A DNA stretch of 64,000 nucleotides from an uncultured Roseburia sp. (GTDB taxonomy: Bacteria; Bacillota; Clostridia; Lachnospirales; Lachnospiraceae), in the NCBI GenBank assembly GCA_947642555.1, contig CANRSX010000001.1, positions 124,001 through 188,000 of the forward strand. Reading direction: 5' to 3'. Position numbers and translations under genes: made by a program. This document shows, in pieces, positions 1,125 to 39,332 of this stretch. The notes under the pieces were generated by a model. It did not search any database, was not told the origin of the DNA, and was given only the letters and a program-made list of their open reading frames with translations. The stretch's first letter is position 1. The number at the start of each line of letters is the position of its first letter.

Positions 1125-2339
1125 CTATGCTGTTTTTGGGATATATGGGATGTATTCCCATTCTTCTATAAATAGCCGGTTGAAAAGGGCATCCATTCTC
1201 CTGATCGTGTGATATGCGTCCTTTTTCTCGGCAAATCCCCGCCATGATTGATATGCCGCCCTGATCTGCTCATAGCTCATGTGGCCCTCAGCATTCAGCT
1301 TGGCAAATTTCTTCAGCTTCCTTCTTTCCCTTGTCACAGATTCCCGGCATATTCTTTTCACTACCTTCCCGGTATCCGTGAGCAGGAAATGTGTTTTTAA
1401 GAATGTGAAGCCATGTGAGAGCTTCACAATTTTGGTTTTCTTATCGTTGATCCTTATGCCCAACGATCCATAGATTTCCCTGATCCGTTCCAGTACCTCC
1501 TTCAGGTATTCCTTATCAATGTGAATGATGTATGAATCATCCATATACCTGGCATATGGCCGGATTCCCTCAACCTCTTTCACATAATGATCCACTTTAT
1601 CAGGATAGGAAACGGCGCACATCTGGCAGACTTCACTCCCTAATCCCAGGCCACTGGCATACTCTTCACCGTACTCCATGGCCGCCTCTTTAAATTGTGC
1701 CATTTCCTTCATTTTCTCCTCAGCAAAGGCATCAATAAATTGCTCTGCAAGGTGAATGATCCTCTGATCCGTGAATTTGCTCCGGATCTGCTCCTTCATT
1801 TTGTCATGTGGGATACTTGCAAAATAATCTTTCAGATCTATTTGCAGGATATAGCCCTCATTTCCATATTTTGCATAATGCTCCTGCAAATGAAGCGTGA
1901 TCCGGTCAATGGCATGGCTGATTCCCATACCCTTCCTGGATGCTCCGTTGTCATATATCAGACTATTGGAGAGCACCGGCATGAGTGCATTTTGTGAGAG
2001 GCTCTTCTGAGGCACACGCTCAGAGAAATGCACACTCTGAATATGCCTCAGCTTTCCCCTCTCCACCAAATCAAAGGCAATGAATCCCTTTCGGACATCC
2101 TCGCCATTGATCAGTGCATTATGAGTTTTACAAAGGTTTCTGCTCAGCTCGGATCTGTACCGCTGCACACTGGCTTTCCACCCCACTCCCTTCCTGGCAT
2201 CCTTGTATGCCTGGTAAAGTGAGTTATAATCTGCCACCCGTTCAAAATTATCATATTCGGATAGCCTCTCCCTCCGGTGTGCCTCCCTGGCCTCTCTCCT
2301 TCGCTGAGCTCTGCCCGCTCTTCTTTCTTCACTTGTCAT
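1125..2339 (-). CDS. Diversity-generating retroelement reverse transcriptase
   Basis: A 404-residue RNA-directed DNA polymerase. An R-rich N-terminal tail (1-30) leads into the RT fingers/palm. The first catalytic aspartate is in QIDLKDYF (D168), a DGR-style replacement for the QG box lies at GLGLGSEVCQ (230-239), and the YMDD active site is at residues 265-268. There is no maturase or endonuclease domain, as is usual for DGR enzymes, which make error-prone cDNA from a template repeat with mutations at adenines. TR lies about 290 nt upstream on the same strand, with the Avd-like gene before it, which gives the classic target-avd-TR-RT order. AGGAGG lies 16 nt before the ATG, which is far, so initiation may be weak or a nearby alternative start may be used. 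Confidence 0.95.
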   Translation of the reverse strand: MTSEERRAGRAQRRREAREAHRRERLSEYDNFERVADYNSLYQAYKDARKGVGWKASVQRYRSELSRNLCKTHNALINGEDVRKGFIAFDLVERGKLRHIQSVHFSERVPQKSLSQNALMPVLSNSLIYDNGASRKGMGISHAIDRITLHLQEHYAKYGNEGYILQIDLKDYFASIPHDKMKEQIRSKFTDQRIIHLAEQFIDAFAEEKMKEMAQFKEAAMEYGEEYASGLGLGSEVCQMCAVSYPDKVDHYVKEVEGIRPYARYMDDSYIIHIDKEYLKEVLERIREIYGSLGIRINDKKTKIVKLSHGFTFLKTHFLLTDTGKVVKRICRESVTRERRKLKKFAKLNAEGHMSYEQIRAAYQSWRGFAEKKDAYHTIRRMDALFNRLFIEEWEYIPYIPKTA

Positions 2340-2486
2340 ATAAAATTGTGCCCATCTCCTCCTTGTACGGTATTTGTGCCCCTAACCGCATAATGGTATG
2401 GGTATGAAATGCACCTCTGCACCTTCTTTTCAGCTCCCTTCCGATTTCTGCACCATGCAAGCAGCGTACACCCACCCAAAACAAGC

Positions 2487-2518
2487 AAAAACCACCTCTC
2501 TGAGCACATGAGAGGCGG
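2487..2518 (-). terminator. Intrinsic terminator in the TR-RT spacer
   Basis: Read leftward, CCGCCTCTC (2518-2510) pairs with GAGAGGTGG (2500-2492; one G-T pair) around a 9-nt loop and is followed at once by five T residues. It lies about 110-140 nt past the end of TR and before the reverse transcriptase start. It could define the 3' end of a discrete template RNA, with read-through feeding the reverse transcriptase gene. Confidence 0.6.
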
Positions 2519-2628
2519 CAAGGTCATTTACACTTTTTTCAAAGTGACGGTCATCCACTCCTTCCTCTACCTGATACAGATTTCTGCCTTTTACAGCGTA
2601 CTTTGTCGGATCGTTTATGGTAGTGAAT

Positions 2629-2748
2629 CAGACGGGCACCCGGAGAGCGTTGGAGCAACTGTTGTTGTTGGCATTGCCATTGTTGTTGACATTGCAGGCA
2701 TTGGTAGAATTGCCCGCACACACAGACAGCAGCCACCAGTTGGCCCGG
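2629..2748 (-). repeat. DGR template repeat (TR)
   Basis: A 120-bp non-coding copy of the 3' ends of two protein genes (VR1 at 3271-3390, VR2 at 26279-26396). Read leftward in the VR frame it contains about twelve AAY (Asn) codons exactly where the VR proteins vary (Y, G, R, N, S, D, T, H). A TGA stop lies just past the VR-homologous end, where both VRs have TGC. Against TR, VR1 has 11 substitutions at template adenines plus one C-to-T, and VR2 has 12 at adenines plus one G-to-A. This adenine bias is the signature of mutagenic retrohoming. Confidence 0.97.
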
Positions 2749-2780
2749 TGCGAAAAATACAGCGGATAACCGATATTTCA

Positions 2781-3188
2781 TTATTTTCTTTTAACTATTT
2801 TCGTGTTGTCCTTCCAATTCTTCAGCTTTCCCTCTTCCTTCAGCATTAAATTCAGGAGCGGATCAAATCGGTTCCAATCCACCGGCAAAGTAGTGGCCAG
2901 GTAATTTATGAGATCATAAATATCCCGCAAGGTGTCAATGGCCTCCTGGGCCTTTGCCTTCCTCTTCTCCACTAATTCCTCCGTTGTGCTCCATATTCTG
3001 TTAGCTGCCCGGATCTGAGTATAGAGCTTGTGGCACAGCGCACACATTGGCTTTGCAAATATATCCCGCCATCCTTTAGGCACTATATTGGTATTCCATA
3101 CCAACCTTGTGGCCTCTGCTCTTATTTCCTCCGCAAGATCCAACACATCCAATTTTGAGGCGCTCCTGAGCCTTGCCAATACACTCAT
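2781..3188 (-). CDS. avd: Avd-like DGR accessory protein (four-helix bundle)
   Basis: This 135-residue protein has no hydrophobic core segment; it is basic and helical throughout, as expected for the pentameric four-helix bundle Avd family, which binds the DGR RT and template RNA (bAvd is about 128 residues). It is encoded between the VR1 gene and TR, the canonical place. Several helices are visible (about 15-35, 50-75, 80-110) and the C-terminal tail is lysine-rich, suited to RNA binding. The ATG at 3188 has AGGA six bases upstream. A TATAAT (3212-3217 region, leftward strand) sits right after the VR1 hairpin and could be a -10 element, but no good -35 is present. Confidence 0.85.
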   Translation of the reverse strand: MSVLARLRSASKLDVLDLAEEIRAEATRLVWNTNIVPKGWRDIFAKPMCALCHKLYTQIRAANRIWSTTEELVEKRKAKAQEAIDTLRDIYDLINYLATTLPVDWNRFDPLLNLMLKEEGKLKNWKDNTKIVKRK

Positions 3189-3216
3189 GCTCTTTCCTCA
3201 CTTTCGCAAATTATAC

Positions 3217-3239
3217 CCCGCCCCTGGGAAGGGGGCGGG
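3217..3239 (-). other. GC-rich hairpin 31 bp after VR1
   Basis: CCCGCCCC (3217-3224) and GGGGCGGG (3232-3239) form an 8-bp perfect stem with a 7-nt loop. The stem begins 31 bp beyond the VR1 end. In the Bordetella phage DGR a hairpin/cruciform just past the VR is known to be needed for efficient target recognition, and this element has the right type and position. There is no T-run after it, so it is not a typical terminator. Confidence 0.8.
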
Positions 3240-3251
3240 ATTGATCCATGA

Positions 3252-4211
3252 TTATTCCGTGATTCGGAAGCAGACGGGCACCCGGAGAGCGTAGGAGCAA
3301 CTGGTGCTGTAGGCATAGCCATCGTCGTTAACACCGCAGGCATAGGTAGAATAGCCCGCACACACAGACAGCAGCCACCAGTTGGCCCGGCTTCCTCCGT
3401 CACCGGCCCCCTTGATCCGATTCTTCCAACTGTTCGCAAAAATCGGATACTGCACCGCCTGGCCTTCTCCCCATGGCTTTGTTGCCCAAATCAGTGAGCC
3501 AAACACTTCATATTCACACGGGATCCACAGTTTCCCTAAATCCTGCCACCCCCATGAGGTTGAATCATTCAGCTTTCCGGATGCAGAATATCTCTGCTCT
3601 AAAAGGAACCGCTTGGAGCTGATAACCGCCCGCACCTCTGCCGGGAGCTTTGCCTCTAATCCGGCCAGGAAGCTCTTCACGGTTGACTTGTTATAGGGAT
3701 AAGGATCCGCTGAGGTTCCGTTGTTATCGTTTGAAGTGAACCATTGCACAGTATCCGGGTAACAATCTTTTGAGATCCAATCAATATGCCACCCTACCTC
3801 CTGATCACAGCACCGTGTATATGTATTTATACCGGCAATCTGCATTTTGATCAGATAATTCCCCATGTAAATGGGTATATAGTCCTCTACATGCAGGCCA
3901 TCAATGTTATGGGCTGCAAGCCTGGTTTTAATCCACCGCCACGGATCAGAAAATCCGGCAATCTCCTCAGCAAATTCCACTGTAAGATCCCGGCCCTCAT
4001 AGGTGCGATCTGCTGCCTCTATGGCATAATTGGTATGCTTATTCTCAAAATTGATCTGCTCTGCACCGTATTCATCCCCTTCCTGGGTGTACGGTGTTAC
4101 GTCATTATAGCTCTTGGTGCCATCCTCGTTCTGCACCTCTCCAAACTTGCGATCTGCCGCAAGCTCTTTGTTGATCACGTCATCCACATAATCTGTTTTT
4201 AATACTGACAT
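3252..4211 (-). CDS. DGR target 1: tail adhesin with variable C-terminal lectin-like domain
   Basis: A 319-residue protein that ends the tail gene block and precedes avd. Residues about 275-313 are encoded by VR1 and vary at the positions of TR Asn codons. The invariant frame around them (RANWWLLSVCAG, CSYALRVPVCF) is typical of the C-type-lectin-like / DUF6273-type fold used by DGR targets. An upstream LWIPCEYEVFGS segment is shared with the second target (LWLPSEFEVFGDS), so both carry the same domain. The N-terminal half has many aromatic and acidic residues and may attach to the baseplate. By family and position this should be the receptor-binding tip of the phage; the receptor cannot be predicted. 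Confidence 0.9.
   Translation of the reverse strand: MSVLKTDYVDDVINKELAADRKFGEVQNEDGTKSYNDVTPYTQEGDEYGAEQINFENKHTNYAIEAADRTYEGRDLTVEFAEEIAGFSDPWRWIKTRLAAHNIDGLHVEDYIPIYMGNYLIKMQIAGINTYTRCCDQEVGWHIDWISKDCYPDTVQWFTSNDNNGTSADPYPYNKSTVKSFLAGLEAKLPAEVRAVISSKRFLLEQRYSASGKLNDSTSWGWQDLGKLWIPCEYEVFGSLIWATKPWGEGQAVQYPIFANSWKNRIKGAGDGGSRANWWLLSVCAGYSTYACGVNDDGYAYSTSCSYALRVPVCFRITE
3271..3390 (-). repeat. DGR variable repeat 1 (VR1)
   Basis: 120 bp matching TR at 2629-2748 except for 11 template-adenine positions and one C-to-T in the GTC codon (silent, GTT). The matching tract extends a few bases further on the 3' side, where both VRs read TGC and TR reads TGA. This marks the expected difference between the initiation site of the target (IMH) and its TR counterpart (IMH*). 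Confidence 0.95.
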
Positions 4212-4983: not shown

Positions 4984-7224
4984 TCACACATGCCTCCTTG
5001 CCACCAGTGTACCGCTCAGGGCCCCGGAATAGTTCAAGCCTACATCTTCAAGCCTTATCATTAAATTCTCTACATACCGGCTTTCTAGGTATGCAAGATC
5101 ATTGGTATCCAGGATCGGATCTCCCCGGTACTTCAATTCATACTGATTGCCGCCCTTGTAGTAGGCCCCCACCCATTCCACCAGGTTCTTAGCGTCCTCT
5201 GCTGAGCTTATGAGCGGATTATTCCAGGTTTGAATGCTGCCGCTGTTATTCAGCTTTGTGGTTTCCTGAGAAGTGGTGATGTTGTACTCATATCCCCGCA
5301 CCGTGATCACCGTCTTGGTATCCTTGGCCGGGGGCTTTGTGATCCTGACTTTGCACCAGTAAGAGCTACTTTCCACCACCACGGCCCCAAAATCCTGAAT
5401 AGCCTCATTTATCATGCACACCGCTGAGAGGTTATGCACCGCATTACCGAAATTTATTTCAAATTCCCTCACTTCTCCTGCTGCCAATATGGTTTCTTCC
5501 GTTGTGAGATCCTTCAGCTCTGTGCCTCTTGTGTAGATTGTCCGGATCACCCTCAGCTCCTTCACCTTTTCCAGTTTGGTGCCGTTGGGTGTGGCCGTTA
5601 GATCGTCATAGGTGAGCCTATAATCCGTCTGACTTCCAAAAAGAATCTGCTTCAGGTGGATCCGGTTGTGCGGCTTTGCCCTGGTAAATTCAATTTCTAT
5701 TTTGTCGGTGTCTATAAAATCATAGTAAACTATGGTTTTTTCCGTGATACTCTTGCTTTTGAACCGCTTCAGGCGCTTCCCATCGTTGAATGTGGTGATC
5801 GTAAATTCCACCGGCTGAATGCTTCCGAAAAGAAGAGTTAAGTTGTAAAAGGTATAGGCGCTTTCCATGGTGAGGGTGATCACCGGGTTCTCCTCAAAAT
5901 ATCCCTCCTCATTGCTTATGGATTCGCTTACATAGCCCACCTCCATGAAATTCTTCCCCCTGGGCATAAAATACTGCTGCCTGCCTACCTGGGAATAATT
6001 CTGCTCAAATGCCGCATATTCAGAATATGGCCGCTCTTTCAGCAGGCACTCAATACTGCCGTACTCTGCCACCTGGTTTGCCGCCACCTCCTTCTCCGGC
6101 TCAAAAGAGGATTTCAGCATGATAATTCCATCCCGGTTTTGCATTACCACGCTTCTCCCGGCATTGGCAATGAGCTGAAGGCATTCCTTGTGTTTCACCA
6201 TAGGCAGCGGATTGTATACTATAACCTTTTTCAGGTATGGATCGATCCAGTACCCCTCCGGGAGCACTCCCGCATCCTCAAACACATCCACCGCCAAATC
6301 AAAAAGGGAGATACCTTCAGGCCGGTACTCTCCCCTTTTATATTCGTCATTCATATACTCAAAAATATCCACAGCGCCAAACTTTGCCAGTTTATCATCG
6401 GCACTCCACTCCTGCATGAAGAGGGTGCCACCCTTTACCCACTCAATGCTTCCATTGTTCAGGGTGTAGCCATAATATACGGCCATTTCCTGGCCGGTTT
6501 CCATGTAGTTAATGGCACTGTCATCATTATCCACATTATAGTATTTATCCATGTTTTCTATGGTCACACTAAAGTCAACGCTTGGCAGGCTCTCCGATAT
6601 GGGAGAAATGTGGCTCTTCATTTCAGCGCTCACTATCTTCTCATTGTCAAACGTGATTCCGATCCCAAATACAATATTGAGGATCCGGAACCTGCCGATC
6701 CCGTTTTTCATTTTCCTTGGATAGATTTTCATAAATGTGGTGTTGTTGAAGGTGTCCTCTGTCTTGAATGTGGGTGAATCGTTCTCATAGTCAAAAATGC
6801 CTTCATCCGTTTCCACCGTGAGCTCCACCGGGTAAGCCTCCCCCAATTCCAGGGTGAGGCCCTTTATATCCAATGGATCCAGTGTATTGAAATGAATGAT
6901 AACCACCGGCTGCTGCCCCTGGCCGCATAATGCCTCTGTTACCATACCGGCATTATAAAAGCTCTTTCCCGGCCCATTCCTGGGCAGGAAATACATGGAG
7001 CGATCCACCTTTGAAAAATCATTCTCATAGGTTGCATAGGTTTTATTTACCGCCTCTGTGCTCAGCGGCTTAATGAGATCGGCAAAATAGGTATATCCCG
7101 CATTCTGCACCTCTGCCGCCGTTTGGGCCGCCTGGTTTATCAGGCCCAGGCTGATCCTCATATATGACTTATTCCGGGCAGCCTGCTTCATGCCCTCTTT
7201 GTACTCTGTGCTTACATACTGCAT
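4984..7224 (-). CDS. Baseplate / tail-associated hub protein
   Basis: A 746-residue protein encoded after the distal tail-like gene and before the linker and adhesin genes, the normal position of the siphophage baseplate hub. It is rich in beta-strand patterns. A duplicated-looking theme (YFLPRNGPGKSFYNAG and YFMPRGKNFMEVGYVSE, each followed by PVVIIHF/PVITLTM) suggests two carbohydrate-binding-like or galactose-binding-like modules, at about residues 60-200 and 400-520. The central part (SVDFSVTIENMDKYYN, about 225-300) resembles the gp27-like hub region of related phages. No protease motif is obvious. The ATG at 7224 follows AGGTGA. Exact family inferred mainly from position. Confidence 0.65.
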   Translation of the reverse strand: MQYVSTEYKEGMKQAARNKSYMRISLGLINQAAQTAAEVQNAGYTYFADLIKPLSTEAVNKTYATYENDFSKVDRSMYFLPRNGPGKSFYNAGMVTEALCGQGQQPVVIIHFNTLDPLDIKGLTLELGEAYPVELTVETDEGIFDYENDSPTFKTEDTFNNTTFMKIYPRKMKNGIGRFRILNIVFGIGITFDNEKIVSAEMKSHISPISESLPSVDFSVTIENMDKYYNVDNDDSAINYMETGQEMAVYYGYTLNNGSIEWVKGGTLFMQEWSADDKLAKFGAVDIFEYMNDEYKRGEYRPEGISLFDLAVDVFEDAGVLPEGYWIDPYLKKVIVYNPLPMVKHKECLQLIANAGRSVVMQNRDGIIMLKSSFEPEKEVAANQVAEYGSIECLLKERPYSEYAAFEQNYSQVGRQQYFMPRGKNFMEVGYVSESISNEEGYFEENPVITLTMESAYTFYNLTLLFGSIQPVEFTITTFNDGKRLKRFKSKSITEKTIVYYDFIDTDKIEIEFTRAKPHNRIHLKQILFGSQTDYRLTYDDLTATPNGTKLEKVKELRVIRTIYTRGTELKDLTTEETILAAGEVREFEINFGNAVHNLSAVCMINEAIQDFGAVVVESSSYWCKVRITKPPAKDTKTVITVRGYEYNITTSQETTKLNNSGSIQTWNNPLISSAEDAKNLVEWVGAYYKGGNQYELKYRGDPILDTNDLAYLESRYVENLMIRLEDVGLNYSGALSGTLVARRHV

Positions 7225-20405: not shown

Positions 20406-21674
20406 CTATCTCAGGCCCCTCTTGGCCTTATTCCGTATCTTAGCTTTTTTATTCACCATTTCATCCTCTAGGGCATAGCGACATGCATCGATCGAATGGT
20501 TGTCTTTGTCAGGGTACGATCCTTTAAAATTCCCGTTTTTGTCCTTTTCCAGTTCGTATGAGGAAAACTCACGGGCCGCATTCGGGCACCTCACCGGATC
20601 AATGATTATCTCATCCAAATCGTCAGACAAATAAGCCACACCAAAATCCACCGATCCGGGCCCCTTCTTGGCCGGGTACACCCTCAGGCCCAACTCATTG
20701 AAGGAAGATATGGAGCGGGGCTCCTCTGAATCTGCTGTTATGATCTTATTGTCCGGGTTTAGTTTCTTTATCTCTGCCACGGCCTTCCGGGTTTTAAGGT
20801 TCACCTGGTACAGCTCAGCAAAGATATAAAGCCGCCTCTGCTTCTTATTCAGGTGCATTCTTTCAAACGCAAGCGGATCCGCCGCAAAACCAAAATCCAG
20901 GCCTTGCTTAATCTTATCAAAGATCGCTATCTCTTCATCCGTGATCTCCCTCAGGATCACATTATCAAATACTTTTCCACCGGTTCCAGTAGCCTCTCCC
21001 AGGTACTCATGCCGGTATGCCATTCTTTTCCGTTTTTTCAGCTCCTCAGCCTCAATGAAAAATTGCTCTCCCAACCAACTCCTGGGCACCGTCAAATATG
21101 TGGAATGGCTACACAGCGTATCATCCCGCACCTGAAGCACATCCTGATTTACCCATGAATTGAGGCTTTTTGGCGGGTTCCATGTGTAAAATACCACATA
21201 CTTATCACCGCCACGCATTAAAGACTGATTTATTTTTCTTTCATCTTCATCCCCTTCAAATTCAGCCCGCTCCTCATACCATATGTATTTAAAATAGCCC
21301 TTCCTCAGCTTGATTGACTTTGACTTGTTAGGATCATCACAACCCCTGAATACAATCCGCTGCCCCGTTGGCTTATAGGTCAGCCTCAGAGGAGAGAGGG
21401 TTATTTTCCATAAATGGCTTACTTCCAGGGCATCTATGGCCCACAAGAGCTGCTCAAAAACGCTCTCAGCCAGGGTATTGCCCACTTTCCTGAAGCAGGC
21501 GGCATTCGCATTGGGATCCTGCATCATGCCGTATATTATTTCCAGGCTCACAAATGAGGATTTAGTGGAGCCTCTGCCTCCGTATAGCTTATAGTGGGTA
21601 TGTTTACCCTCCAAAATATCCCAATGAATATCATAGAATTGTGGTGCAATGAGATCAGAGAGCCTAATCTCCAT
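20406..21674 (-). CDS. terL: Terminase large subunit (PBSX family)
   Basis: A 422-residue packaging ATPase-nuclease. The ATPase domain begins HYKLYGGRGSTKSSFVSLEI (Walker A GGRGSTKS near residue 33), with YIWYEERAEFEGDEDERKI as Walker B-like region and FYTWNPP as coupling motif. The nuclease domain shows GLDFGFAADPLAF, TADSEEPRSI and a late DNHSIDACRYALED, the RNase H-like acidic residues. This is the PBSX-type terminase that cuts and packages headful or cohesive-end DNA; mode cannot be told here. ATG at 21674 overlaps the terS stop by 11 nt. Confidence 0.95.
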   Translation of the reverse strand: MEIRLSDLIAPQFYDIHWDILEGKHTHYKLYGGRGSTKSSFVSLEIIYGMMQDPNANAACFRKVGNTLAESVFEQLLWAIDALEVSHLWKITLSPLRLTYKPTGQRIVFRGCDDPNKSKSIKLRKGYFKYIWYEERAEFEGDEDERKINQSLMRGGDKYVVFYTWNPPKSLNSWVNQDVLQVRDDTLCSHSTYLTVPRSWLGEQFFIEAEELKKRKRMAYRHEYLGEATGTGGKVFDNVILREITDEEIAIFDKIKQGLDFGFAADPLAFERMHLNKKQRRLYIFAELYQVNLKTRKAVAEIKKLNPDNKIITADSEEPRSISSFNELGLRVYPAKKGPGSVDFGVAYLSDDLDEIIIDPVRCPNAAREFSSYELEKDKNGNFKGSYPDKDNHSIDACRYALEDEMVNKKAKIRNKAKRGLR

Positions 21675-25002: not shown

Positions 25003-25593
25003 CTATCTGTAAAAATTGTGATTGCCTACCGTCTTTATGTATTCCAAATTTTCAGAGTGCCAGGTGTTCTCCCCATTGTATACAGCTTCAAAATATAGGG
25101 CCCCTTCACTTTCATCCCACCCGTCAATGAGCACCATATCCAGGGCGGCCCAACACTCTGCATTAGGCTCCACCCGGTTAAACCGGCCATTTTCTACCGG
25201 TGTAAACTGCCCATCCTCAAAAATTACCTCCTCTATGGTATCCGGGAAGGCGCTGCTTTCTTCTCTATTCAGCACCACCCGGATCACCATTGCCTTCCCT
25301 TCTATGCTCTCACCCTCTGCTTCAGCCATTGCAAGGCGGGCCAAAAGGTACTCATTGCGGGAATTGCCGGATCCTGATTGTGTTTCCTGAATAGGCTCCT
25401 GCTGCACTCTTTCGGGCTCCGTGGCCTTATGCGGGAGCTCTCCGGCCTCCGTTTCCTGCTGAATCTCTTCCACCGGCTCCTCTGCCGCCATTATTTTGCA
25501 TATTATGGCCGCCGCAATCAGAATGGCCGCAAATATTACTGCTGCCCTCCTGGCCGCTCTCAACCTCCTCCGGATCCTCCGCTTTTTCTTCAC
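25003..25593 (-). CDS. SleB-like cell wall hydrolase, membrane anchored
   Basis: About 196 residues from the GTG at 25593. An earlier ATG at 25731 (with a GGAGGGG site) would add an unnatural R/S-rich segment read out of frame through a zinc-protein gene. After a basic stretch comes a transmembrane helix (AAVIFAAILIAAAIICKIMAA), an E/Q-rich linker, then the hydrolase_2/SleB fold: LLARLAMAEAEGESIEGKAMVIRVVLNR with the catalytic Glu in AEGE, and GQFTPVENGRFN. SleB enzymes cut peptidoglycan. Its place among early genes, not at the late lysis end, is unusual. Confidence 0.75.
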   Translation of the reverse strand: MKKKRRIRRRLRAARRAAVIFAAILIAAAIICKIMAAEEPVEEIQQETEAGELPHKATEPERVQQEPIQETQSGSGNSRNEYLLARLAMAEAEGESIEGKAMVIRVVLNREESSAFPDTIEEVIFEDGQFTPVENGRFNRVEPNAECWAALDMVLIDGWDESEGALYFEAVYNGENTWHSENLEYIKTVGNHNFYR

Positions 25594-25756
25594 ATATACT
25601 ACACGCAAAGAAGGGCTCCCGGCTCCCCTTAATGAAAAAGCCTTTGCATTTCCCGCTTGCGTCCTTCTCTGCCTTCTTGCATTTCTCTCCCAGGATCGGC
25701 TCTCCCGGACTTGGATCGGGTAACTTTTCATTGCAAATCCCCTCCAATGCTTTCAT
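25427..25756 (-). CDS. Zinc-binding phage protein overlapping the hydrolase gene
   Basis: The ATG at 25756 opens a frame reading KALEGICNEKLPDPSPGEPI, then C-KKAEKDASGKC-KGFFIKGSREPFFACSICEEK. This four-cysteine arrangement (residues about 8, 24, 34, 49, 52) is seen in small zinc proteins of Clostridia phages. The last third (NNGGRGAGGRDSAGNGG) is low complexity and overlaps the SleB-like gene by about 167 nt in a different frame. It may be read past its original end. Confidence is limited by that overlap. Confidence 0.45.
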   Translation of the reverse strand: MKALEGICNEKLPDPSPGEPILGEKCKKAEKDASGKCKGFFIKGSREPFFACSICEEKAEDPEEVESGQEGSSNICGHSDCGGHNMQNNGGRGAGGRDSAGNGGRRAPA

Positions 25757-26229: not shown

Positions 26230-26248
26230 CCGCCGCAAAGGCGGCGGG
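26230..26248 (-). other. GC-rich hairpin 31 bp after VR2
   Basis: CCGCCGC (26230-26236) and GCGGCGG (26241-26247) form a perfect 7-bp stem with a 4-nt loop. The gap from the stem end to VR2 is 31 bp, the same as at VR1, though the stem sequences differ. Both hairpins are followed by the same short word GATTGAT toward the VR. This supports a structural signal for DGR target choice. Confidence 0.78.
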
Positions 26249-26259
26249 ATTGATATTGA

Positions 26260-26883
26260 TTATTTTTTGATACTGAAGCAGACGGGCACCCGGAGAGCGT
26301 TGGAGCAACTGGAGTAGTAGGCATTGCCATAGTAGCTGATACGGCAGGCATAGGTAGAATAGCCCGCACACACAGACAGCAGCCACCAGTGGGCCCTCTC
26401 TCCGTCCTGGTCAAATTTCACCCGGTTCCTGGGATCCTTGAAGAGCTCAAACTGCTGCCCTTCCTCCACTTCAGAGGCCCAACTATCGCCAAATACCTCA
26501 AATTCAGACGGGAGCCACAGCTTCAGCATGAAGCGCTCCTCTTTCCCTTCCACAATCTGAAGGCACTCCCTCTCACTGATCACCGCCTTCAGCTCCTCAG
26601 GCAGGATGGCCCATACCTCCTCATTCAGATACCGGCACAAATCCGATTCTTTAAAGCCTCCGGTGCTTCTCCCGTTCTCATTCCACACCACACGCTCAGC
26701 CAGGAGATCCTTGCTTACAAATTTCACCTCTTCCTCTGTAATATCTGCCACCACATACACCATTTTCTGCCCGGTGAGCAGATTATCAGAGATTTCATCC
26801 CCTACTTTCAAAGAGCCTGCTGCCACCAGTTCCTTCACCTGGCCCCAATTTGTTTCCTCTGTCCTTTTCTTTGTGATTTCCAT
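26260..26883 (-). CDS. DGR target 2: early-region variable protein (DUF6273-like)
   Basis: 207 residues from the ATG at 26883, which has AGGAGG nine bases upstream. Residues about 163-201 are encoded by VR2 and vary at TR Asn codons. The domain before it (KMVYVVADITEEEVKFVSKD, LWLPSEFEVFGDS, GERAHWWLLSVCAG) is the DUF6273/C-type-lectin-like module shared with target 1. It lacks a signal peptide, membrane segment, or tail-attachment region, and its neighbours are DNA methylation and small early genes rather than structural ones. It may therefore act inside the cell or as a separate virion or secreted binder. Its function is unknown. Confidence 0.88.
   Translation of the reverse strand: MEITKKRTEETNWGQVKELVAAGSLKVGDEISDNLLTGQKMVYVVADITEEEVKFVSKDLLAERVVWNENGRSTGGFKESDLCRYLNEEVWAILPEELKAVISERECLQIVEGKEERFMLKLWLPSEFEVFGDSWASEVEEGQQFELFKDPRNRVKFDQDGERAHWWLLSVCAGYSTYACRISYYGNAYYSSCSNALRVPVCFSIKK
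26279..26396 (-). repeat. DGR variable repeat 2 (VR2)
   Basis: 118 bp matching TR apart from 12 template-adenine positions and one G-to-A in the GTC codon (Val to Ile). One adenine change lies near the 5' end (AAC to CAC, Asn to His in the RAxWW motif), where VR1 is unchanged. Variable codons translate to Y, Y, R, S, Y, Y, N, Y, Y, S, N. Located 23 kb from TR. Confidence 0.95.
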
Positions 26884-27241: not shown

Positions 27242-28611
27242 CTATGCAAATTTGATCTGAGCTTCGCTACAATCGATCCTCATGTGTGGCATCCGCTCTC
27301 CTACTTTCAAGTATCCACAGTTTGCTTCCACCAATTTCTGAGCCATAATTGGCACCACGCTATTACCAATTCTTGCCACCTGCTCCTTTACCGGATACTG
27401 CTTGAAATTTATATCACGGTCAATTATGTAATCAGGTGGAAAACCCTGCATGATCTTCAGCTCCTCCGGCTTCAGCATTCTCAAAAATATATCATTCAGA
27501 ACATACTTCTCACCATTCAGCTCCACAATGGCGCTCACCAGGCCAAAACGATCCTTTGTTGTAATTGTTCCCAATGGGCTGCTCAACGTCTGCCCACACC
27601 CGGCCCCATAATATTTGATCAGAAATGCAGTTATCAGGCCAAAATGCCCCGGTGAGGTTGTGATTGTGTGAAGCGGCTCATTGCACCCCTGCCCGATCCC
27701 TGATTTATAGAATTTTGTTACAAAGGCCGTTACCAGGCCATACCGGTTGCTTGTGTCAATGGTTTTTATGGGCTCTTTGAGTGTCTGCCCCCTTGCATCC
27801 CCTTCTTTCTGCTCCCCGTGATACTGAATCAGAAAAGCATAGGCTTCACTGTTTTTCACTTCATAGGGATGCGGATTATTCACCACATACTTCAGGAAAC
27901 CATTGGCAATCCGCTTCATTGTGGCCTCTGCAAGCGGCTTTTTCCGGTCAAATATGCTTTTTCCCAAATCCGACCAATCAATATATTTCCCGCATTCTTC
28001 CCAGGGCTTCAAGCCGCCTGCTGCCCCTTTTGCATGTGTGGGCTCCGGCCAAATTATTTCCCGGCCATCCTTCCTGAAAATTGCATACCACCGCCGCCTC
28101 GTTGTTGGAGCTCCATAATCTGCCGCCACCAGTTCCCTACTGTCAAACTGATAGCCTAACCCTTTCATGGCATTTATAAACTTTTGATAGTCCTCACCTT
28201 CCCGCTCCTTTATCGGGCGGCCATTGTCATCCAGTGGCCCCCATTTTTGAATCTCTTCCACATTCTCCATGATAACCACATCCGGCCTGATTGCTTTTGC
28301 ATGTTTATATACTGCCCATGGCAGAATCCTCAGCCCTTTTTTCGTGGTTGTGATCCCTTTGCTTTGCTGTGACTTGTGCAGTCAGGGCTTGCCCACATAA
28401 GGGAAACATGCCGGCCATTTACATACTTTTTCAGATTTACCTCAAAAATATCCTCTGTCAGGTGTGTGGTGGTGGGATGGTTTACTGTGTGCATTCTGAT
28501 CGCCTCCGGATCGTGATTGATTGCTATATCCACAGTTCTCCCTAATGCCATCTCAATTCCCACGCTTGCACCGCCACCGCCTGCAAATGCGTCAACTAAC
28601 AGATCTCTCAT
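27242..28611 (-). CDS. C5-cytosine DNA methyltransferase, split by a -1 frameshift at a slippery site
   Basis: Two leftward frames together make one Dcm-type enzyme. Frame A (from ATG 28611) has LLVDAFAGGGGASVGIEMALG (SAM site), INHDPEAIRMHTVNHP, and SPDCTSHSKAKG, the catalytic cysteine motif, then stops at 28330. Frame B, shifted by -1, continues without loss (LRILPWAVYKHAKAIRPDVVIMENVEEIQKWGP, with the ENV motif), then GAPTTRRRWYAIF, target-recognition repeats (TSNRYGLVTAF, TTKDRFGLVSAI) and GNSVVPIMAQ. The switch falls on A AAA AAG. It could be programmed frameshifting, a phase-variable homopolymer, a decayed gene or a base-call error. It overlaps the MT-A70 gene by 20 nt. Confidence 0.8.
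28336..28342 (-). other. Canonical -1 slippery heptamer A AAA AAG in the methyltransferase
   Basis: In the zero frame of the first half the codons read CGA AAA AAG, giving A_AAA_AAG as in E. coli dnaX. An AGGGA Shine-Dalgarno-like word lies about 11 nt upstream, and a small hairpin (CTGCC-ATG-GGCAG) begins about 11 nt downstream. The zero-frame stop TGA is two codons beyond the site. All three dnaX-like elements are present, but the hairpin is weak. Confidence 0.55.
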
Positions 28612-29176
28612 TCTTCTCACCATCCAATTTTCCGACTTCATTCCCCCAACAATCCCAACCGCTGATATTTTGCCGAGCAAAAAGCTCTATGTAATTCAGA
28701 TCATCACCCATAAGCTCCCGGATCTTATCCCGTACCACTTCCGGCTTCTGAGAGTGTGCCTTCACTGATTCCTCTATAATTTGACTTACGCTATTGCTCT
28801 TTCTGCTTGGCTTCCCTCTCACTCCGATAAAGCAAGCCTCTGTATTGCCTCTAGTCCACCGGCCCAGGCCAAAAAATTTCCCTTTTCCGCTCTTGTTTAA
28901 CTTTATCCACTGGAAGCCTATGGTTTTATACTTAAATCCCCATGCCTCCATGAGCTCAATGCCTTCCTTCAGCATTGGATATGTGATCCACATGAAAATA
29001 ACACAATCCTTTGCCGCCAACTCCTTCACCGGTAAATCCTTTATATCCTGAATTTTCATGGTGTCATAATGGAGAGCACATGCTCCATTGCATTTCTTAT
29101 CCTGGTATCTCCACGGCGGATCCGCATAAATCACATCATACTTTTTCACCGGGGAGAAAATATCTATTTCAGCCAT
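28592..29176 (-). CDS. MT-A70 family N6-adenine DNA methyltransferase
   Basis: A 194-residue protein with the DPPW catalytic motif in YDVIYADPPWRYQDKKC (near residue 20), then KDCVIFMWITYPMLKEGIELMEAWGFKY and GRWTRGNTEACFIGVRGKP, the standard MT-A70 phage methyltransferase frame. It methylates adenine N6, probably in DNA, and may protect the phage against restriction. ATG at 29176 in a good site (GGAGGAGAG upstream). Its 3' end overlaps the C5-methyltransferase start, so the two modification genes are coupled. Confidence 0.9.
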   Translation of the reverse strand: MAEIDIFSPVKKYDVIYADPPWRYQDKKCNGACALHYDTMKIQDIKDLPVKELAAKDCVIFMWITYPMLKEGIELMEAWGFKYKTIGFQWIKLNKSGKGKFFGLGRWTRGNTEACFIGVRGKPSRKSNSVSQIIEESVKAHSQKPEVVRDKIRELMGDDLNYIELFARQNISGWDCWGNEVGKLDGEKNERSVS

Positions 29177-35838: not shown

Positions 35839-37419
35839 ATGAATTTTGGAATATATTGCAGAAAATCATATTTTGTTGATACTTCAGAGAGCACACAGAT
35901 GCAGCTCTCCATGTGCAAAAATCATATAGAGCAGCGCTTTCCTGAGGTGAGCTCTCTTGCATTCTATGAAGATGATGGTTATGTGCGCTCAGATATGGAT
36001 CGGCCCGGTATGAATCAACTGAAGGAAGATATTGCAGCAGGCCTCATTGATTGTGTGGTTATTTATAAAATAGATCGGGTGTGCTCCGATATGATGGACT
36101 TTTGCACCTTCTATTCTTACCTGAAAGAGCATGAGATCAAATTTATCACTGTTCAGGATGGCATTGATACCACCACACCCCTGGGAGAGGCCATGATGTA
36201 CTTGGCTGTAATCTTTTCCGGCCTGGAAGTTCGCACAGATTCCCTCAGGATCACCGATAATATGAATCACCTGGCGGCAAGCGGCTTTTGGTGTGGGGGC
36301 CAGGCTCCCGTTGGTTATGATATTACCACCATTGACCTGGGATCCAAATCCCACAAAACGCTCATATTCAATCAGGAAGAGATCGACTATAAAAACAATC
36401 TTATTGACATATTCTTAGAGAATAGCTTCAGCCTTCAGAGCATGGAAACATATTGTAAGAACAACCGGATCACCTCTTTAAAGGGCAACTTCCTCTCCAC
36501 AACTCAGTTATACAATATTTTCACCTCTCCTCATTGTGTTCAAGATACTCCGGCCATGTATGACTATTTTGAAGCTAAAGGCTGCATGATTGATGAAAAT
36601 TCCCCCCGTGAGAAGTGGGATGGCCAACATGGGATCATTGTATATGGCCGCACCATGGAAAAGCGGGTGAACGGCAAAAAGCGCCACTCCCTGGCACCGC
36701 CTGAGAAGTGGCGGGTGAGTATCGGCTTTCATAAGCCATACATGACGGATCAGCGCTTCTTTTCCATTATGGCCCAATTCGGGCATAATACTTTTTCAAA
36801 GGTTGCAAAGTATGATCTGCCGCTCCTGAAGGGTGTGCTCCGGTGCAAGTGTGGCCGCACCATGAGTATGAGCCGCAAGCAAAAAGCGGATGGCTCCGTT
36901 TCCACCTGGTACTATTGCCCCAAACGCATGAGGGCCGGTGCTGAGGCTTGCGACATGCGACAAATTAAAGCCGATCTACTGGATGGGAAGGTGTTGGACG
37001 TATTCAAAGAAATACAGCATAACCCGGCCACCGTCAAAAAGTATCTGAAGGACGGGAAAAGGCCTGCAAGGGATTCCTCTGCCGCTGTCCGGGCCCAAAT
37101 GGAAACATGCCAGGAAAAGATCGGGAAGCTCACCGCCGCCCTGGCCGTGAATAATGAATCTGCTGCCGCAAAATATATTATAGGGGAGATTGAAAAACTT
37201 GATATAGAATACAATACCCTCAAAAGCAAACTGCTGAATTTTGCTGCTGAGGAAAGACGGGCCGCCGCCCAAATGAAGAGCGCTATGGAGAAAAGAGAGG
37301 CCATTATTCGGCTTTTAGATAATTTTGACAGCTTTACAGCAAATGAGAGGAATGAGATCGCCAAAAACGTGCTGAAGGAATGCACCTGGGATGGGGAAAC
37401 GCTTTTTATTATGCTCTAA
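35839..37419 (+). CDS. int: Large serine recombinase (phage integrase)
   Basis: 526 residues. The catalytic domain opens IYCRKSYFVDTSES with the nucleophile Ser at residue 10 and continues with VVIYKIDRVCSDMMDF and MMYLAVIFSGLEVRTDSLR. Residues about 150-330 are the recombinase domain (GFWCGGQAPVGYD). A zinc ribbon follows (LRCKCGRTMSM, then YYCPKRMRAGAEACDM). The C-terminal part is the coiled coil region of large serine integrases. Unlike tyrosine integrases it needs no host factor and short att sites. The gene ends at the phage-host junction, as is usual for such phages. Confidence 0.97.
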   Translation: MNFGIYCRKSYFVDTSESTQMQLSMCKNHIEQRFPEVSSLAFYEDDGYVRSDMDRPGMNQLKEDIAAGLIDCVVIYKIDRVCSDMMDFCTFYSYLKEHEIKFITVQDGIDTTTPLGEAMMYLAVIFSGLEVRTDSLRITDNMNHLAASGFWCGGQAPVGYDITTIDLGSKSHKTLIFNQEEIDYKNNLIDIFLENSFSLQSMETYCKNNRITSLKGNFLSTTQLYNIFTSPHCVQDTPAMYDYFEAKGCMIDENSPREKWDGQHGIIVYGRTMEKRVNGKKRHSLAPPEKWRVSIGFHKPYMTDQRFFSIMAQFGHNTFSKVAKYDLPLLKGVLRCKCGRTMSMSRKQKADGSVSTWYYCPKRMRAGAEACDMRQIKADLLDGKVLDVFKEIQHNPATVKKYLKDGKRPARDSSAAVRAQMETCQEKIGKLTAALAVNNESAAAKYIIGEIEKLDIEYNTLKSKLLNFAAEERRAAAQMKSAMEKREAIIRLLDNFDSFTANERNEIAKNVLKECTWDGETLFIML

Positions 37420-37460
37420 TTTTCCCTGAATTATTTTGATACCCTCCGGGCGCATACGTA
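37420..37460. other. Phage attachment junction (attL or attR) in cpaF
   Basis: The cpaF reading frame is normal up to LRMRPE (position about 37445) and then turns into unrelated residues (GIKIIQG) encoded by phage DNA up to the integrase stop at 37419. The core crossover therefore lies within about 37,430-37,455, in or near CCTCCGGGCGCATACG. The matching partner site is beyond the left edge of the window. Confidence 0.75.
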
Positions 37461-38256
37461 AGGAGGATTTGATCAGATCACGAATCGTCACCGCCCCGCT
37501 TCCCGATGCGTTCGCATTCCGCGTCTCGAGACTGACCAGGTTATCCACTCCTTCGATCTGAAGCTCCGCGGAATCTTCAATTGTAATCACACGTTCATCA
37601 TGCGGGATAAAATTGGATATCGCATTCAGAAAGGTCGTCTTTCCAGATCCGGTCCCGCCGCTGATAAAAATATTGTATTTTGCCTTCACCACGATTTCGA
37701 GAAAATGCGCCACCTCCGGCGTGATCGACTGATACTGCAGCAGCTTTTCCACCGTCATCGGATCCCTGGAAAACTTACGGATCGTCACGATTGGCCCCTT
37801 CAGCGATATCGGCGGCAGCACCACGTTGACACGGGAACCGTCCGGTAGCCTGGTATCCACGATGGGATTCGCCTGATTGACCTCCCGCCCCGCCAGTCCC
37901 ACGATCCGCTGAATCACATCCTCCAGCTTTTTTTCATCCTCAAAGGTCTCTTCCAGCCGGTGGACACGCCCTGCCTGTTCCACAAAGATCTCATCCGGGC
38001 CGTTTACCATGACCTCCGTAATGCTCTCGTCATTCATGATAACGTCCAAAATATCGAATCCCCGGATCGACCCGAACACCTGATCCGCAATATTCAGTCT
38101 TTCATCAATCGAAAGGTATTCCCCCTGTGCCCGGCGTTCCATCAGTCCTTCAATAGCGTCCTGCACCTCTTCATCTGTCATAACGCCCAGGGAATATCCG
38201 TCCATCAGCTGTTGTCTGATCTGAAGCACAAGTGCCTGGCGTTCTTCTTTTCTCAT
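37440..38256 (-). pseudogene. cpaF: cpaF/tadA secretion ATPase, 5' portion cut by phage insertion
   Basis: The N-terminal about 270 residues of the Tad/type II-like secretion ATPase. Recognised by ILDVIMNDESITEVMVNGPDEIFVE, then GSRVNVVLPPISLKGPIVTIRKF, the Walker A FISGGTGSGKTTFLNAI, VITIEDSAELQI and RDLIKSSLRMRPE. The normal continuation (Walker B region with VGEVRG) is missing because the prophage begins here. Start is taken at the ATG at 38256 with GAGGG upstream. It overlaps cpaE by 4 nt. CpaF powers Flp pilus assembly, so this lysogen would lack it unless the phage excises. Confidence 0.9.
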
Positions 38257-39332
38257 CTGTTTTCCCTCTGGCATAAACCGGAGAATACCTCTTTCTCCGC
38301 CATCTGCTCTATGATTGTCCGCTCCGTCATATTCTCATAGCGCGGAAAACCTCCCAGCGTCTCCGGCTGATCCTGATCCAGCCTGCATCCGGTCCGGCTC
38401 CCAAACCTGTTATATAACAGTTTTACCTTTGGCATCAGCACAATGTCCTCGTTTTTCTCATAAAGATACAATGCCTCGCAGAGCTTTTGTATCTTGCCGT
38501 TCGCCGTCTGAGTACCATCCGAAATCAATATCACAGAATCGGCGCAGTTTCGCAGCACATAATCCGTATCTGCAACTCCGCTGTTCCTGTCCATAATGAC
38601 AGAATCATACATGCCGCTTTCCGCCACTGCGCGCACCAGAACCTCCATATCCTTTGCGCTGATACTTTCGGTATCCGCTGCATGCCTGCACGGTTCCACA
38701 TAAGAAATACCCGAGATGTCCTGCCGGACCACACTCTCCAGCTTGATGGCAAAATTTCCCCGCTTTGCCTTTAGTGCATACAGCAGATCTCCAAGATCTG
38801 CTTTCCCATCTCCCCCAAGAAATGACTCTGTGGCTCCAAACCGTTCCAGATTCAGATACAGGACCTTCTGCCCCTGATGCTGCAGATAATATGCGCATGC
38901 GCATGCAAGCGTTGTTGTCCCGACACCCCCGGCCGGCGATTCAAATAATAAGACACTCCCCCGGCCTTCCGTCCGACTGCCTGTATGCAGCTGCGAGATC
39001 TGCTCCGAACAAAGCGACATCATTTCTTTGATCAGTGCGTCTGCATGCTGATATTTCATCAGGACCGGGAGCTTCTGATCCTCCCCCGCCCCCATTCCAT
39101 CCGAAAGACATGCAAACACGGTATTACCTGACAGCGCCTCCTGAACGGAGAGAAAATCTGCTTCCACAAAAACCCCGTTCACCCTGTTCTTCTCCAGAAA
39201 GTCCGCGAGCAGATCCGTCCTTCCGAAAAAATACAGTTCAATCCGGTCGCCATAATGCAGGCTGATATAATCTGCAAGCCGGTTCGCGTACTTCTCATCC
39301 GTACTTCCAAGTGCAATCTTAAGTTTTATCAT
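38253..39332 (-). CDS. cpaE: CpaE/TadZ-like MinD-family ATPase
   Basis: About 359 residues from the ATG at 39332 with AGGAG seven bases upstream. Residues 1-120 form a receiver-like N-terminal domain (no clear phosphorylation set). Residues about 125-330 are a ParA/MinD domain with a deviant Walker A, SPAGGVGTTTLA, which lacks the usual lysine. GISYVEPCRHAADTE and YDSVIMDRNSG follow. CpaE/TadZ proteins place the Tad pilus apparatus at the cell pole. It is the first gene of the leftward Tad operon, transcribed from a consensus promoter. Confidence 0.85.
   Translation of the reverse strand: MIKLKIALGSTDEKYANRLADYISLHYGDRIELYFFGRTDLLADFLEKNRVNGVFVEADFLSVQEALSGNTVFACLSDGMGAGEDQKLPVLMKYQHADALIKEMMSLCSEQISQLHTGSRTEGRGSVLLFESPAGGVGTTTLACACAYYLQHQGQKVLYLNLERFGATESFLGGDGKADLGDLLYALKAKRGNFAIKLESVVRQDISGISYVEPCRHAADTESISAKDMEVLVRAVAESGMYDSVIMDRNSGVADTDYVLRNCADSVILISDGTQTANGKIQKLCEALYLYEKNEDIVLMPKVKLLYNRFGSRTGCRLDQDQPETLGGFPRYENMTERTIIEQMAEKEVFSGLCQRENR

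Follow-up and report, generated by a model that had tools for sequence, protein, structure and literature searches.

The window, a stretch of 64,000 nucleotides from an uncultured Roseburia sp. (GCA_947642555.1, contig CANRSX010000001.1, positions 124,001 to 188,000), contains near its left edge a complete diversity-generating retroelement (DGR) within a prophage. The DGR cassette consists of a gene for a first target protein, a gene for an Avd-like protein, a template repeat (TR) and a reverse transcriptase (RT) gene, in that order and all on the minus strand (Table 1); every part that had been attributed to it in a preliminary description of this DNA was located, in the order given there. 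Copies of the TR are present as variable repeats in two genes, VR1 in target 1 of the cassette and VR2 in a small gene of the early region of the prophage (target 2). We estimate a probability of about 95% that the prophage carries a DGR with one TR and two targets.

Table 1. Features of the predicted DGR, its targets and the surrounding prophage (positions in the window; aa, amino acids; IMH, initiation of mutagenic homing).
Feature	Position	Strand	Evidence and remarks
Predicted DGR RT, 404 aa, YMDD	1125..2339	-	PF00078 (E 2.4e-14); phrog_1423, reverse transcriptase (E 1.6e-80)
TR, 12 AAY codons	2629..2748 (approximate)	-	A of the TGA near 2628, just beyond the 3' end, marks an IMH*-type border
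Avd-like protein, 135 aa	2781..3188	-	31% identical to the annotated Avd of Shimadzu (a Roseburia phage), which occupies the same cassette position
GC-rich inverted repeat after VR1, 8-bp stem	3217..3239	-	
VR1, in target 1	3271..3390 (TR-copy span 3267-3390)	-	11/26 TR adenines changed vs 1/94 other sites
Target 1, 319 aa, C-terminal DUF6273	3252..4211	-	PF19789 (E 1.5e-6); directly after tail genes
Large terminase	20406-21674		
GC-rich inverted repeat after VR2, 7-bp stem	26230..26247	-	
VR2, in target 2	26279..26396 (TR-copy span 26264-26396)	-	12/26 TR adenines changed vs 1/92 other sites
Target 2, 207 aa, DUF6273, early region	26260..26883	-	PF19789 (E 7.5e-23); phrog_21980; about 23.6 kb from TR
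C5 DNA methyltransferase, C-terminal part	27242..28279	-	PF00145 (E 1.7e-11); one small open reading frame between gene and target 2
MT-A70 type adenine methyltransferase	28592..29176	-	PF05063 (E 1e-32); PADLOC MTase_II (E 4.3e-68)
Large serine recombinase (integrase), right prophage end	35839..37419	+	

The RT gene is a full open frame in the window, and alignment of its product located the YMDD motif that had been reported for it. The protein is of the DGR type: its best sequence match in the Protein Data Bank (PDB) is a reverse transcriptase (8ub7_A, E 7.6e-11), which we take to be the RT of phage BPP-1, ahead of group II RTs, and it is 53% identical to the RT of Roseburia phage Shimadzu, which adjoins an annotated Avd in that phage. 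The consensus of motif 4 in DGR RTs is [ILV]GxxxSQ. In the RT alignment, the motif reads LGSEVCQ in the window, with CQ also in its three near relatives and SQ in the more distant RTs of Shimadzu, L086, L066, L093 and L067. An insertion of about 20 residues precedes LGSEVCQ, and four of the five more distant aligned RTs lack it. The Avd-like protein has no Pfam, PHROG or NCBIfam match and no relevant PDB match.

Compared with the TR up to the IMH border, both VRs differ from it almost solely at TR adenines (Fisher p 7e-8 for VR1 and 1.3e-8 for VR2). Over the two repeats together, 23 of 25 substitutions fall at TR adenines, the same count as in the preliminary description, which was also right about the number of AAY codons in the TR. 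Both of the VRs that it mentioned exist, but VR2 falls outside the interval 1125..4211 to which it had assigned the element. In both targets the VR occupies the C-terminal end of a domain of the C-type lectin type, a placement expected of DGR targets. No further copies of the TR besides VR1 and VR2 were found in the genome to which the window belongs (G000, 96% complete). A chance repeat was ruled out by the adenine statistics and by the behaviour of the TR and VRs in relatives.

Two viral contigs and six genome contigs encode close relatives of the RT (94-96%), together with a TR, VR1 and mostly VR2; the near relatives that bear names are Lachnospiraceae. One viral contig (G001) was dropped because its repeats are identical to those of G009 (Lachnospiraceae 10-1), the pair being counted once, and G003, which possesses VR2 and has no RT in its record, was used for column counts and kept out of the adenine statistics. 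When TR and VRs were aligned across these genomes, as the preliminary description had suggested, the VRs were found to vary under an identical TR, almost solely at TR adenines. In four of the eight distinct elements (G000, G009, G004 and G005) the TR is identical over 161 bp, and among these four VR1 differs by 10-16 positions and VR2 by 12-18. Relative to its own TR, VR1 is changed at 90 of 214 adenine cells and at 4 of 746 others (eight distinct elements, the window included), and VR2 at 81 of 159 adenine cells and 4 of 549 others (six distinct elements, the window included). In the pooled set of eight VR1 and six VR2 sequences, the changed adenines became G (77), T (69) or C (25).

The direction of transfer can be read at a new AAT codon that is common to the TRs of G006, G007 and G008. 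The TAT of VR1 and VR2 of G007 and the CGT of VR1 of G008 at this codon show that these repeats derive from the new TR, with mutations at its adenines. The reappearance of a lineage-specific TR change, in mutated form, in the VRs of the same element is as retrohoming predicts. Five changes private to the TR of G002 are found also in its VR1, where they do not tell the direction. The TR and VR data from relatives support the earlier proposal of mutagenic retrohoming that rewrites an adhesin; the proposal was incomplete in that a second gene, target 2, is also rewritten and is not placed like an adhesin gene.

The TGA of the TR, which had been contrasted with TGC in the VRs, is a real difference, but its adenine is not a mutable site: in column 133 of the alignment all eight distinct TRs have A, and every VR has C (15 of 15: 8/8 distinct VR1 and 7/7 distinct VR2). 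Because a mutable adenine would vary and this VR base is invariant, the adenine lies 3' of the conversion border and is a fixed IMH/IMH* difference. VR1 and VR2, unlike the TR, are each followed by a related stretch (AATAATCA..ATCAATCCCGCC in the window) that contains a GC-rich inverted repeat; it is absent after the VR2 of G003, a more distant relative. In the window and 14 surveyed records (described below), with hairpin end points entered by hand from the survey table and TR ends approximate, perfect stems of at least 7 bp were found downstream of VR1 in 12 of 13 cases, of VR2 in 13 of 15 and of the TR in 0 of 14, and such stems occur in 77 of 2000 random control stretches (3.85%), taken from the window only. 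These hairpins are evidence apart from base substitutions and argue that VR2 is a true target. For BPP-1, efficient homing is reported to need a hairpin after the VR (Guo 2011, PMC3240598).

By analogy with known DGRs, the RT, together with Avd, would reverse transcribe a transcript of the TR and misread its adenines, giving cDNA with random bases at those sites. The GC-rich IMH and the DNA hairpin that follows it would mark the sites at which this cDNA then replaces the VR. A single TR would thereby serve the C-terminal domains of a tail-adjacent protein (VR1, presumably for receptor binding) and of a small early-region protein (VR2).

Several observations weigh against the reading of this element as a working DGR with one TR and two targets. 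A cysteine replaces the serine of the SQ motif in its RT, and the identity of the Avd-like protein leans on a single weak homology, that to Shimadzu Avd. The TR itself is inconstant, with 0 to 9 differences in 161 bp across the eight distinct elements. Both VRs of G006 keep an older CTC despite the new AAT in its TR, so a change in the TR does not pass to the VRs at once. In Lachnospiraceae 10-1 and the matching viral contig (10001-11215 in both L003 and L014) codon 54 of the RT is an in-frame stop, and some relatives may therefore have lost the DGR. The VRs of the Lachnospiraceae 10-1 prophage are diversified although its RT is interrupted. An interrupted RT in so close a relative would also fit a dead relic in which the VR differences are old; for the window this is extremely improbable, as its RT is fully open and VRs differ under an identical TR, nearly always at TR adenines. 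Judged from its sequence, the DGR looks functional.

The two targets differ in size and position. Target 1, which has no PHROG match, is presumably an adhesin, to judge from its domain and the position of its gene directly behind the tail genes. Target 2 sits between the terminase and the integrase, with the two methyltransferase genes upstream, and matches a PHROG family of unknown function. A structural model of target 2 from a 12-sequence alignment reached pLDDT 81 and pTM 0.83 (a single-sequence model, pLDDT 32, was discarded). A Foldseek search of the PDB gave no match at E <= 0.001; of the 25 viral structural matches at that threshold, three are named tail or receptor-binding proteins. 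PADLOC gave no match for either target. The ratio of nonsynonymous to synonymous polymorphism (pN/pS) of target 2, over 15 pairs from six relatives, is 0.26 outside the VR and 8.2 inside it; outside VR2, target 2 is under purifying selection. The C5 methyltransferase gene spans two frames in the window (27242-28533), and the relative in G003 is one frame of 456 aa. Downstream of target 2, the early region also encodes a SleB-like cell wall hydrolase (25003-25731), and the early genes of Shimadzu likewise include a cell wall hydrolase.

The distribution of remote second targets was surveyed from a base of 80 RT loci kept from at least 559 RT relatives, in which 35 viral records of at least 30 kb were searched with a target-2 profile. 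All 35 records have matches, and in 14 of them, chosen by eye from the table of profile matches, a match lies far from the TR, at about 7.5-54 kb; the other 21 have no remote match in that table. As records may be fragments, 14 of 35 sets a lower bound. In all 14, the remote gene contains a copy of the TR of that record. TR adenines account for 230 of 249 substitutions in these copies (changed: 230 of 461 adenine cells vs 19 of 1180 other cells), the counts being untrimmed at the IMH border, so that the 230 include the fixed border adenine where a record has one. Elsewhere, substitutions in remote targets fall at TR adenines in 15 of 15 cases in Shimadzu, 10 of 10 in genome G157 and 15 of 16 in Dulem virus 34. 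These results also bear on whether VR2 might be a selfish or idle landing site that does nothing for the phage, as could be supposed because the IMH and hairpin are enough to direct the BPP-1 DGR to a foreign gene (Guo 2011, PMC3240598). The recurrence of remote DUF6273-type targets in the 14 records and three more phages or prophages, and the purifying selection on the rest of target 2, make that very unlikely.

Among 112 same-strand proteins encoded near target-2-like genes at 18 loci, DNA methyltransferases are commonest, followed by helix-turn-helix (HTH) regulators and repressors, DNA primase, replication initiation proteins, single-stranded DNA-binding protein (SSB) and helicase, in counts made at these loci only. 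The scan covered gene calls by a simple script, of at least 65 aa, on the same strand and within four genes, and used 112 of 118 listed proteins. Its 18 loci include the window, omit L086 and L235, where the wrong open reading frame had been picked, and include L089 and L092 without a TR check. Of 169 PHROG and 52 Pfam families, the 25 listed for each include an endolysin family and none of head or tail proteins. Extra domains were found in two of ten target-2 proteins scanned, namely gp49_66 (E 1.1e-23) and a HAD-like domain below the Pfam cut-off. An adjoining methyltransferase was dropped as a universal feature of target 2: a rough motif scan, which took the wrong reading frame at two loci (L086 among the positives) and missed an N6_N4 methyltransferase beside the L230 target, found a methyltransferase motif within five genes at 9 of 20 loci, and 'early region' therefore fits better than 'beside a methyltransferase'.

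It is unlikely that target 2 is a second virion protein, an adhesin or decoration protein merely located away from the tail genes. The DUF6273 domain common to both targets, and the three tail or receptor-binding proteins among the structural matches, would be expected of such a protein. The commonest neighbour families at the 18 loci, however, are those of DNA modification, regulation and replication, with an endolysin family and no head or tail family among those shown, and the extra N-terminal domains of its relatives (gp49_66 and the weak HAD-like match) are not tail modules.

The prophage extends from the left edge of the window to about 37.4 kb, within a bacterial genome of 4.99 Mb. A leftward run of genes encodes the tape measure, major tail protein, tail chaperone, neck, major head protein, portal and large terminase. 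No tail sheath was found among the phage proteins scanned, which were part of the phage protein set. At the right end, the large serine recombinase is accompanied by a repressor-like gene. The siphophage-type tail, head, portal and terminase genes and the recombinase agree with the initial assignment to a serine-integrase siphophage. Since target 2 is encoded in a prophage, between the packaging genes and the repressor/integrase end, it might act in the lysogen, for example by excluding other phages or by sensing molecules of the host or of phages. This is somewhat unlikely: the gene lies within a leftward run of early type and does not adjoin the repressor, and no secretion signal was seen by eye, no predictor having been used.

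A TadA/CpaF-type ATPase gene (37315-38274) is cut at the right prophage end, and its apparent remainder is located about 2.7 kb to the left of the window (L005 16834-17253). Because these parts flank both ends, the prophage is about 40 kb long; it appears to split the ATPase gene, and the lysogen may lack that ATPase. Contig 3 of the same genome (L006) contains a separate, second DGR-like element, with a 120-nt VR/TR pair (5646-5765 and 6267-6386, 621 bp apart) in which 11 of 12 differences are at TR adenines, and an RT, from about 6532, that is 27% identical to the window RT.

The DGR of BPP-1 has one target, mtd; unlike it, the window DGR has two targets about 23 kb apart. The window element resembles the BPP-1 DGR, as described by Guo 2011 (PMC3240598), in its RT, Avd, TR, adenine-specific change and IMH followed by a DNA hairpin, and differs in its hairpin loops (CTTCCCA and CTTT), which do not fit the GRNA consensus given there. 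Closer to it is the DGR of Roseburia phage Shimadzu (LR596903), where one TR diversifies a tail protein and an unknown protein (PMC11792537): two targets are likewise served by one TR, and target 2 is 43% identical, in addition to the similarities of RT and Avd given above. Shimadzu has a tail sheath, whereas the window prophage has siphophage-type tail genes.

The Quimbyvirus DGR is reported to have two targets of the C-type lectin kind, of which one is encoded beside the tail genes and the other away from them, near four methyltransferase genes (Benler 2021, PMC8008677), and the second target of the window, too, lies outside the structural module, among DNA methyltransferases. According to that paper, the Quimbyvirus RT is encoded in three overlapping frames, in contrast to the single open frame of the window, and the second target is on the strand opposite to the structural genes, whereas in the window both are leftward. 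The inferred hosts of the Quimbyvirus family are mainly Bacteroidetes, and Lachnospiraceae are also named. A role in phage-host conflict was proposed there from one phage group. Faecalibacterium phages Lelie and CP11 resemble the window prophage in having a single DGR that serves two DUF6273 targets, one large and one small, a pair whose function is left open by the authors (PMC11792537). The tentaclin phages nd4 and nd12 also have two DUF6273 / C-type lectin targets per DGR, but they are described as having both targets in one cassette with one VR near the 5' end (PMC10743442), whereas the second target of the window lies far from the cassette and its VR, like VR1, is C-terminal.

Two-target phage DGRs are thus already known in print, and the window element is one more well-supported DGR example. 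The method of a large metagenome survey, by its published description, would miss remote targets (Roux 2021, PMC8144416), and no survey of remote early-region DGR targets was found in the open-licence literature searched. The present survey adds that a remote early-region second target recurs in this RT group, in 14 of 35 records as well as in Shimadzu, Dulem virus 34 and G157.

As a guess, target 2 may be an intracellular variable binder of host factors in phage-host conflict. We put forward tentatively, as a possibility and not as the probable case, that in many temperate gut phages one DGR varies both a tail adhesin, for entry, and a cytoplasmic early-region protein with a lectin fold, which once inside the cell would encounter a host factor that itself varies, for example a defence protein. 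The recurrence of the second target across many phages, the purifying selection outside VR2 and the hairpins at both VRs make the idea of a conflict role testable in cultured phages such as Shimadzu. If the idea is true, DGR diversification would serve intracellular counter-defence, widely and repeatedly, beyond the choice of receptor.

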